From positions 1-11,964 of the forward strand of contig JAGLUV010000035.1 in the NCBI GenBank assembly GCA_023134215.1: 11,964 nt of DNA. Direction: 5' to 3'. Position 1 is the first letter of the stretch, and each line of letters begins with the position of its first letter. The notes beneath the pieces are model-generated. The model was not told where the DNA came from and did not search any database. It saw only the letters and a program-made list of their open reading frames with translations. Below, one piece after another: positions 6,737 to 8,869 of the stretch. The stretch comes from Candidatus Thorarchaeota archaeon. GTDB taxonomy: Archaea; Asgardarchaeota; Thorarchaeia; Thorarchaeales; Thorarchaeaceae. The position numbers and the translations under genes are program-made.

Positions 6737-6880
6737 ATGGTCTACACTTGCTTTTCCTGTAAGCACGAAGTTACGCCCGAAGGACTGAAGACATTGCCCG
6801 GCGTGAAGTGCCCCTACTGTGGTGGACGAATTCTGTACAAGGTTCGCCCTCCTGTTGTTAAGCGAGTTAAGGGAGTCTAG
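6737..6880 (+). CDS. rpo12: DNA-directed RNA polymerase subunit Rpo12 (RpoP)
   Basis: A 47-residue protein, homologue of eukaryotic Rpb12/Rpc10, which helps assemble the Rpo3/Rpo10/Rpo11 platform of archaeal RNA polymerase. The zinc-ribbon cysteines are C5 and C8 (YTCFSCKHEV) and the CPYCGGRILYK pair, followed by a basic tail (VRPPVVKRVKGV), exactly the family pattern and length. The only in-frame start is ATG 6737. It lies 74 bases after the radical SAM stop and may be cotranscribed, or use a weak T-rich TATA-like site near 6695-6703 (TTCTTATTG). A strongly T-rich stretch follows the stop. Confidence 0.93.
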   Translation: MVYTCFSCKHEVTPEGLKTLPGVKCPYCGGRILYKVRPPVVKRVKGV

Positions 6881-6908: not shown

Positions 6909-7007
6909 CTATGGCTTGTATACAAGGAGCGCTGCTACTACAATCGAAGCCAGGAATAGCATCACAAAAAGGATAGACAGAATCTTTCTTTTTAGAGCAT
7001 ATCTCAA
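6909..7007 (-). CDS. 32-residue single-helix membrane micro-ORF downstream of get3
   Basis: Four bases after the get3 stop, a TTG at 7007 opens a 32-codon frame ending in TAG at 6909. The product starts with a basic segment (MRYALKRK), then about 20 hydrophobic residues (ILSILFVMLFLASIVVAALL), and ends VYKP. This is the pattern of a one-pass membrane peptide, probably with the basic N-terminus in the cytosol, much like a minimal tail-anchored protein. The sequence GGAGGAG at the very end of get3 is an excellent ribosome site about 6 bases before the TTG, arguing for translational coupling. No family is recognised. The hydrophobic run in a correctly placed frame is unlikely to be chance but such short ORFs need comparative support. 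Confidence 0.5.
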   Translation of the reverse strand: MRYALKRKILSILFVMLFLASIVVAALLVYKP

Positions 7008-7010
7008 AAC

Positions 7011-8009
7011 CTACTCCTCCATTTCACCCAGGAGAATTGCCCCTAGCTTCTCTAGATTTTCAATTCCTCTTATTTCTCCCCCAAAGAGCGGAACTACCGT
7101 CAAGCTCAGATCAGAGTACAGGTCTCTGATATCCTTGAGGTTTGCCTGCTGCATTTGCCGTCGTGTAGCACAAAACTTGCACGTTGGATTCGGTGGCACA
7201 AGATGATTCACCACCATATTACTGACAGGTATTTTCCATTTGTCCAAGCTATGCATAAGCCGTTGAGTTTCAAAGACGGCCATCGCTTCAGGTATTAAGA
7301 CTACCACAAACTGCGTCAACTCAGGGTCGGACAGCTCGATTCGTGCAGCTCGTATCTTTTCCTTCATCAACTGCATCATCTGCCAAGAATTTTCTTCTTG
7401 TTCAGCTCCTCCGAACATGCCCTTGAGACTGGCCATCATTGAGCTCATTCTTTGTCGCATTGTGAGTAGCTTTCCCATCCAGCTGTCAAGAAGATCTGGC
7501 AGCTCTAACAGCTTCAGAGTATGCCCGGTGGGGGCAGTGTCGAATATGACCCGGTCGTAGGAACTGTCTTCCAGATATTCCAACATCTTCCCGAAAGCCA
7601 TTGCTTCATCAGAGCCTGGCGGGGACATGCCACCCATATCTCCCATTAACTGTGCAGCCATAGCTCCTTCGGATCCCATCGCGCCTGATCCCATTGCATC
7701 TTGGAATTTGGCCATTCCCTTCTCGGTGCTTATCTCCAGTCCCCAGAGATTATCTATACCTTCTATTGACACTTCCTCGCCGCCGCTCAAGTTCTGGTCA
7801 AAACTATCACTAAGACTGTGGGCTGGGTCGGTTGACAAGATTAGAGTTCTGAAACCTTGCTTGGCTGACAGAATTGCCATTGCACCGGCGCAGCTGGTCT
7901 TTCCAACGCCACCCTTCCCGCCAGAGAGTATGAACTTGATATTACCGTTGTAGACTATATCCTTGATACCCATAGACTTCGACTCGTGAAGTTTCGCACC
8001 ACAATACAT
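7011..8009 (-). CDS. Get3/ArsA-family ATPase
   Basis: A 332-residue P-loop ATPase of the Get3 (TRC40)/ArsA family. Motifs: deviant Walker A GGKGGVGKTS (30-39, with the signature lysine K32), switch I DPAHSLSDSF (61-70), switch II DTAPTGHTL (157-165), zinc CxxC at C277/C280 (TCKFC), and PLFGGEIRG near 307-314 for nucleotide contact. It is a single ATPase domain, so it acts as a homodimer as Get3 does, not like two-domain bacterial ArsA. Residues 99-142 and 178-215 hold nine methionines each, as in the flexible client-binding groove that holds hydrophobic helices. With CxxC, this favours a membrane-protein targeting chaperone over an arsenite pump; no arsenic genes are nearby. ATG 8009 has no Shine-Dalgarno but fits a short leader from the TATA-like site at 8052-8059; ATG 7973 is an alternative start. 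Confidence 0.88.
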   Translation of the reverse strand: MYCGAKLHESKSMGIKDIVYNGNIKFILSGGKGGVGKTSCAGAMAILSAKQGFRTLILSTDPAHSLSDSFDQNLSGGEEVSIEGIDNLWGLEISTEKGMAKFQDAMGSGAMGSEGAMAAQLMGDMGGMSPPGSDEAMAFGKMLEYLEDSSYDRVIFDTAPTGHTLKLLELPDLLDSWMGKLLTMRQRMSSMMASLKGMFGGAEQEENSWQMMQLMKEKIRAARIELSDPELTQFVVVLIPEAMAVFETQRLMHSLDKWKIPVSNMVVNHLVPPNPTCKFCATRRQMQQANLKDIRDLYSDLSLTVVPLFGGEIRGIENLEKLGAILLGEMEE

Positions 8010-8221: not shown

Positions 8222-8869
8222 ATGCCCCTCGCCAATGAGGAGATTGTGAAGCTATTCAACCCAATATCTATCGTCATTGTGATGATTGATAACTTCGGTC
8301 TGTTCGAGGCGGTTGTCTACAAACCCGAGGCATTGATCAAGAACTTGGAAGTGCTCGCGCTCATTGAAACAGACGACCCCTATGCAATACCTGTAATCAA
8401 CTCAATACTCCGTGGGCCTCCCGATCAGCAGTTCCACCTGCTGCAATATGTGAAAAGCCATGGCAAGTTCACTCATGCCATCTGCCGTGAAGACGACATG
8501 AGCGCTTTTGGTTTTGATTCCACATACACCGTAAACCCGCGTGACGACATGGCAACTTATGTCGAGTCAACAAAGAAGGTCTTCCGCAGTGAATTACTAT
8601 TTATGCACTTTCTAGACTTTGAGAGCCTCTATGCCCAATATGGGCATCGAACACCCCCGAAGACACTACTCGAGAAGATAGTGCGACGCACAGACAACTG
8701 GATCAAGGTCCTGTATCGTCAAGCAAGGGAGGATACTCTATTCATGATAATAGGCAATCACGGACGCCATCCGGTTCCTCTGAACTACGAGGGCAAGCTT
8801 GCAGAATGGAGAAAGGCAAATTCCCCAATCGCAATTATACTGCAGAAGCGTGCGCAACAAACTAGCTAA
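8222..8869 (+). CDS. Divergent alkaline-phosphatase-superfamily protein (start uncertain)
   Basis: From ATG 8222 the protein has 215 residues and resembles the alkaline phosphatase / phosphoglycerate mutase metal-hydrolase superfamily in outline. A strand ends in a metal-type aspartate (SIVIVMIDNFGLFE); a helix before a glycine turn (DPYAIPVINSILRG) lies where the nucleophile loop is expected; FMHFLDFESLYAQYGH gives the D...H pair; and TLFMIIGNHGRHP matches the usual 'SDHG' motif with asparagine in place of aspartate. That change, and no clear Thr/Ser nucleophile, suggest altered or lost activity. The frame is open upstream to 8108 and looks coding (FPSTILRLLRLEVPPG just before the ATG), but has no ATG, GTG or TTG; a GGAGG at 8125-8129 lies 8 bases before an ATC codon at 8138. 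The true protein probably starts upstream. The 3' end overlaps uppP by 8 bases. Confidence 0.6.
   Translation: MPLANEEIVKLFNPISIVIVMIDNFGLFEAVVYKPEALIKNLEVLALIETDDPYAIPVINSILRGPPDQQFHLLQYVKSHGKFTHAICREDDMSAFGFDSTYTVNPRDDMATYVESTKKVFRSELLFMHFLDFESLYAQYGHRTPPKTLLEKIVRRTDNWIKVLYRQAREDTLFMIIGNHGRHPVPLNYEGKLAEWRKANSPIAIILQKRAQQTS

Follow-up and report, generated by a model that had tools for sequence, protein, structure and literature searches.

Directly behind get3 in a Candidatus Thorarchaeota archaeon lies a gene of 32 codons that encodes a microprotein with a basic head and a single hydrophobic helix. The window, meaning the whole stretch of 11,964 nucleotides that was analyzed (contig JAGLUV010000035.1), carries one such open reading frame (ORF), and it is not a product of chance: the microprotein exists as a gene in its own right, is under purifying selection at the level of the protein, and is linked to get3. 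What might it do? The explanation that we favor, at a probability of roughly 45%, is that it is a tail-anchored (TA)-type protein that is produced together with Get3, handed to Get3 after its translation, and then built into a membrane complex as a small subunit. Get3 is an escort of membrane proteins. The cargo of archaeal Get3 and its receiver in the membrane are little known, and the very phrase “archaeal Get3” occurs in two papers of the PubMed Central collection searched. Within the closest archaeal kin of eukaryotes, a microprotein encoded next to get3 in one entire Asgard family and in two distant ones offers a specific candidate, inexpensive to test, for a natural client of Get3 or its partner in the membrane. 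It is also the kind of gene that annotation misses and that is hardly ever annotated.

The get3 product of the window matches the Pfam ArsA_ATPase family (E 7e-87) and belongs to the TRC40/Get3 family, scoring 295 bits against the GET3/TRC40 model TIGR00345 (cut-off, 135). Its residues 20-331 align to two archaeal structures (3zq6 and 3ug6), with the CxxC motif CKFC falling on CEFC and CDFC of these proteins, while the lowest E-value in the PDB search belonged to the algal ArsA1 (5zme). Among other Thorarchaeota contigs, get3 is 88-92% identical to six and 66-75% identical to ten more. The gene stops with TAG at 7013-7011 and is followed by GTT (7010-7008), so that the TTG start of the microprotein ORF (7007-7005) comes three bases past the stop and 8 nt after GGAGG; its own TAG occupies 6911-6909, and 28 nt separate it from the end of rpoP, which is convergent. 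The frame and the presumed ribosome-binding site formed by the last get3 codons, both named in a preliminary description of this DNA, were found as described (Table 1).

Table 1. Features at the get3 locus of the window
Feature	Position	Strand	Basis
get3 (TRC40/Get3-type ATPase)	7011..8009	-	Pfam PF02374, NCBIfam TIGR00345, archaeal structures 3zq6 and 3ug6
Microprotein ORF, 32 aa, TTG start, TAG stop	6909..7007	-	Kept in same-family loci; pN/pS
GGAGGAG, Shine-Dalgarno-like, formed by final get3 codons	7014..7020	-	Sequence
Predicted membrane helix, microprotein residues 9-30, including S21	6918..6983	-	Hydrophobicity and conservation
rpoP (RNA polymerase subunit P), convergent neighbor	6737..6880	+	Pfam PF03604; NCBIfam match below cut-off

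The encoded protein, MRYALKRKILSILFVMLFLASIVVAALLVYKP, opens with the basic head MRYALKRK and continues as one hydrophobic stretch, whose highest 17-residue Kyte-Doolittle mean is 3.1. The basic head and single hydrophobic helix that had been claimed for it are borne out, and the predicted helix lies at the extreme C terminus, as is characteristic of a tail anchor. Within the family, helix hydrophobicity ranges from 2.5 to 3.1 (median, 2.8); the same script gave 3.16 for one Thorarchaeota Sec61-beta. The 45 family microproteins are all distinct in sequence, and conservation is concentrated at particular positions: M1 is invariant, S21 is present in 45/45, K8 in 43/45, and F18 in 41/45, with a basic residue at positions 2, 6, and 8 in every member. 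A cytosolic N terminus would, by the positive-inside rule, call for such residues, but position 31 is frequently a K or R as well. Thirty-six of the 45 sequences align without an internal gap to give the consensus MRxxxKxKxxSxxFxxLFLASxxAAxYLxxKP; this alignment, A1, also underlies the 227-genome profile, the comparisons with other families, and the helix-face test described below. In that test, F14, L17, F18, S21, A25, and L28 share one face of the helix, with a periodicity that is marginal (p ~0.045 at 100 degrees).

How well is the frame kept among relatives? The family sample comprised 47 genomes (the window's own plus G001-G046), 45 of which have a readable get3 3' end. At all 45, get3 is followed by a single-helix ORF, 32-36 residues long when measured from the start codon aligned with the consensus M1; breakage of the frame in close relatives had been set beforehand as the test that would refute the gene, and the frame is intact throughout. 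As for the remaining two genomes, G024 was left out because its contig ends within get3, and no get3 match was found in G027, where the locus probably lies in a gap, since the adjoining radical-SAM gene is truncated and a run of 100 N is present there. Relative to the first base past the get3 stop, the ORF starts at -4 in 9 loci, -1 in 3, 0 in 2, +1 in 3, +2 in 14, +3 in 11, and +5 in 3, and some loci have alternative in-frame starts as far as 32 nt upstream. Start codons, checked in 36 loci, are ATG (22), GTG (8), or TTG (6), and a Shine-Dalgarno-like 4-mer occurs between -16 and -4 in every one of these loci; the other 9 of the 45 were outside this sample. A family profile run over 227 Asgard genomes gave a single strong match (E < 1e-10) per genome in the 45 family genomes, always located at get3; G024 and G027, whose get3 end is missing, had no such match. 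Weak additional matches inside the family fall in long frames (G013, G029, G031, G032, and G034). One genome, G046, has a second, weaker, shortened copy (L167, C292:6384-6458) beside rpoP, some 600 nt past the intact copy, which looks as if the spot had been duplicated.

Selection was assessed by the comparison of synonymous and nonsynonymous changes that the preliminary description had called for, and it points the same way: a lack of purifying selection, the other outcome that would have refuted the gene, was not observed. In nine subgroups that take in 35 of the 45 sequences, pN/pS for the microprotein is 0.11-0.30, compared with medians of 0.72-0.92 in column-shuffled alignments. Across the nine subgroups, shuffles that reached a value as low as the observed one numbered 1/600, 0/2000, 11/2000, 0/600, 0/2000, 2/2000, 0/2000, 0/2000, and 8/2000. 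In the genus (7 sequences), where 1/600 shuffles did so, the ratio is 0.288 for the microprotein versus 0.142 for get3, and the five other frames across the same DNA give 0.43-1.96. An ORF of this type follows get3 in 20/20 cases and other gene ends in 0/164, the control ends being drawn from the same related, partly redundant loci, with at least two pairs from the same genome.

The linkage to get3, which it was suggested would be notable if conserved, reaches past the close relatives and includes two distant Asgard families. In f12, such an ORF lies directly behind get3 in 3/3 genomes; in f9, it does so in 6/7 with a usual start codon and in 7/7 if a CTG start overlapping the get3 stop (G069) is counted. 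Over its full length, the Thorarchaeota profile can be aligned with those of f9 (probability, 92.6%) and f12 (94.0%), for which alignments of 6 and 3 rows were used, and the Ser column is invariant in the 14 rows of the comparison. Against a common origin, f9 and f12 compared directly give only 26.7%, and the probabilities for individual f9 rows are spread between 18 and 93%. Among control helix slices, which overlap and come from two proteins, 0/42 exceed 5%; among helices with a basic head, the best of 11 valid controls reached 20%. Profile similarity and position together make it likely that the f9 and f12 microproteins are homologous to the Thorarchaeota one. The genes that come next are not the same: in Thorarchaeota there is a convergent rpoP; in f9, a SUI1-type gene and an rpoP that is codirectional; and in f12, a gene taken, from its sequence alone, for a metallo-beta-lactamase-fold protein, with rpoP ~3.7 kb away.

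What about the rest of the Asgard archaea? A get3 match was present in 184 genomes, for part of which the 3' ends were read, and 50 other get3 ends (31 + 19) from 25 families lack an ORF of this kind. The first screens required an ATG, GTG, or TTG start. A recheck of the 50 ends without this rule, which the ten f9 and f12 ends used as positive controls all passed, brought up one helical frame (L149), out of frame inside another gene's ORF of annotated size. Five of the 50 ORF-less get3 genes, less than 41% identical to the window Get3, may be paralogues. Ends of ArsA-like paralogues had the microprotein in 0/3 cases (G006, G012, and G051). Tandem pairs of distant ArsA/Get3-like genes, 26-33% identical to the window Get3, occur at G006:C29, G012:C67, G050:C102, G051:C10, G074:C102, and G092:C349.

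A different arrangement is found in f11. Here, a microprotein look-alike (L177, L178, and L179; for example, MEGIALRRKILAIILILLFLGTLVAALFTAIY in G072) is present in 3/4 genomes. It stands by itself, flanked by a small-GTPase gene on one side and a convergent gene on the other; get3 lies at another place, is divided among contigs, or was not found. Family f11 seems to hold an unlinked copy, the start codon of which is ambiguous in G079. The profile used here, A5, includes f9, f12, and f11 rows, so matches to those families arise partly by construction. Outside the family, the family profile built from A1 had matches at 24 places, with E from 4.6e-5 upward, 12 in open frames of at least 145 aa and 12 in short frames; of the nine short-frame matches read (G124, G078, and G172 aside), the only ones that look like kin are the three of f11. 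On a 34-row tree of Get3, the families that bear the microprotein (f1, f9, and f12) fail to group as a single clade, and well-supported branches force at least three changes. The pair is therefore either ancient and was lost in some lineages, or it originated, or became joined, on more than one occasion.

Is the microprotein a member of a known family? No convincing Pfam, NCBIfam, or PDB match was obtained (18 members were scanned against Pfam). Membership in a Pfam or NCBIfam family was rejected, the best E-values being 0.012-0.064, from one member apiece; the KdpF model matches 1/18 members, at E 0.012. The best PDB match, to a helix of chitin synthase (E 0.056), was taken as chance, and kinship with a solved protein was rejected as well. 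The same holds for identity with Sec61-beta: the microprotein has no match to PF03911. A separate Sec61-beta gene is present in 56/59 genomes, the window's own included. A word-based search of 5.77 billion predicted proteins, the sensitivity of which is limited, returned a single 32-aa protein for each 43-aa natural-ORF query (on one and four contigs); one of the two is unnamed, and the other is called “hypothetical protein.” In the accessible portions of a mainly open-access literature on archaeal and Asgard Get3, small proteins of Thorarchaeota, Asgard microproteins, and get3 neighborhoods, nothing was found on this gene, and neither Get3 nor ArsA occurs in the passages of PMC5898192. The microprotein was rated a new family among the one-helix microproteins encoded in operons, one whose putative partner is, unusually, soluble. 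Familiar examples of this type are CydX, CcoM, and KdpF, all of them operon-encoded one-helix microproteins. They resemble the present one in their ~30-40 residues (37 aa for CydX and 36 aa for CcoM) and in being small subunits of membrane complexes. They differ in that there is no convincing sequence relation and in that their partners are membrane enzymes, whereas Get3 is soluble.

Of the readings considered, that of a Get3 client fits the layout of the microprotein best. In this scheme, for which we infer Get3 binding, translational coupling, topology, and partner alike, the microprotein would be translated from the get3 message through stop/start coupling, a step supported by the starts that overlap the get3 stop or fall within 5 nt of it and by their Shine-Dalgarno-like sites. 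Only a few residues follow the sole hydrophobic segment. At the end of synthesis, the helix should therefore still occupy the exit tunnel of the ribosome, and insertion would have to be post-translational. Get3 from the same message would most likely take the helix and deliver it to the cytoplasmic membrane (N in, C out). There, the conserved face would pack against a partner, making the microprotein a small subunit in a complex of the membrane, for which the Get3-dependent insertion machinery is a plausible candidate. TA proteins carried by Get3/TRC40, such as Sec61-beta, have the same very hydrophobic C-terminal helix, a basic N-terminal side, and a necessarily post-translational insertion. 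Unlike them, the microprotein has merely ~8 residues before the helix and a gene that sits behind get3, and it is without sequence relation to Sec61-beta. The client reading is favored by the fact that f9 and f12 keep the position although the next genes differ and by a helix hydrophobicity near that of one Thorarchaeota Sec61-beta; targeting is post-translational for helices near the C terminus, with GET3 serving the most hydrophobic of the tail anchors (PMC7616256). It is weakened by the apparently unlinked copy in f11 and by the marginal conservation of the helix face. Get3 in general is independent of the microprotein, since the 50 get3 ends of 25 other families do without it.

Could the microprotein belong to an insertase? 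EMC6-type proteins have three helices, in contrast to the one of the microprotein, which, with no Pfam match among the 18 members, was not identified as EMC6-like. If the subunit reading is right, it would still resemble, as a small membrane protein of an insertion pathway, the EMC6-like partner proposed for the archaeal YidC-like insertase PF01956 (PMC8675477). This insertase was detected in 214/227 Asgard genomes and not in the window's own, incomplete genome.

A possible reading, to which we give less credence, is that the microprotein is a minimal receptor or tether, whose basic head would dock Get3 at the membrane, either unaided or next to the YidC-like insertase of archaea. The strict linkage to get3, the one strong copy per family genome, the unfailing basic residues at positions 2, 6, and 8, and the conserved helix face would all suit such a role, as would the small partner proposed for archaeal Oxa1-type insertases (PMC7616256 and PMC8675477). 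Against it stand a cytosolic part of merely ~8 residues, the absence from the get3 loci of 25 other families, and the positive-inside rule, which by itself explains basic residues ahead of a helix. How would such a receptor compare with a known one? Get1/Get2 (WRB/CAML) has several helices plus a cytosolic coiled coil or Get3-binding domain, and the basic N terminus of yeast Get2 docks Get3 at the membrane. The microprotein would share with it the role of a membrane partner of Get3 and the basic cytosolic N terminus; it differs in its single helix and in having no long cytosolic part and no family match. Identity with Get1/Get2 was rejected for a protein of 32 aa with one helix and no Pfam match. 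A bolder speculation, which we regard as doubtful, casts the microprotein as a receptor or adaptor with one helix that serves Get3 as its dedicated partner in the membrane. The get3 gene and the 32-residue gene would then form a minimal Asgard GET-type system, ancestral in one part of the phylum and later lost or unlinked in other lineages. The preliminary description had offered a client, a receptor, or a regulator of Get3: a real microprotein tied to get3 is what stands, and the 50 ends without the ORF and the seemingly unlinked copy in f11 speak against a general receptor.

It is unlikely that the microprotein is a passenger, that is, a membrane protein with a job of its own that shares the get3 message for expression only. 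The unlinked look-alike of f11 and the patchy distribution on the Get3 tree are what one would expect of a passenger, yet three lineages that differ in the genes after get3 retain the pair, and within the family, the microprotein is always at get3.

Two further explanations concern the nature of the ORF. Very improbably, it could be a C-terminal membrane tail that Get3 acquires through read-through or a frameshift at its stop, an idea suggested by the window's genus, where the ORF shares the get3 frame. Over the 45 loci, however, it is in the same frame in 13, the second in 29, and the third in 3, and this variation excludes read-through; with 32/45 loci using another frame than get3, the microprotein has a start of its own, accompanied by a Shine-Dalgarno-like site at every locus examined, and the get3 stop codon itself varies among TAA, TAG, and TGA. 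Least probable of all is a chance ORF, or a DNA or RNA element that merely resembles coding sequence: short ORFs are common, and random 17-nt start zones in the window yield one of this kind in 65/20000 draws, but the low pN/pS of all nine subgroups, the higher ratios of the five other frames, and the invariant M1 and S21 speak against it.

Other proteins encoded near get3 deserve mention. In f9, a conserved membrane protein of ~120 aa with about three hydrophobic segments lies directly upstream of get3 in the five loci read (L160-L163 and L172). It was rejected as an EMC6-like partner, its best Pfam match having an E of only 1.4, and it could act in the same pathway as the microprotein. In the window, a 215-aa protein (8222-8869) is encoded divergently from get3; it has no Pfam match, and NCBIfam gave just weak, sub-cut-off matches to phosphopentomutase. 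A relative of this protein (37-42% identity) sits upstream of get3 in all five f9 loci read, and for this reason, it may be functionally tied to get3.
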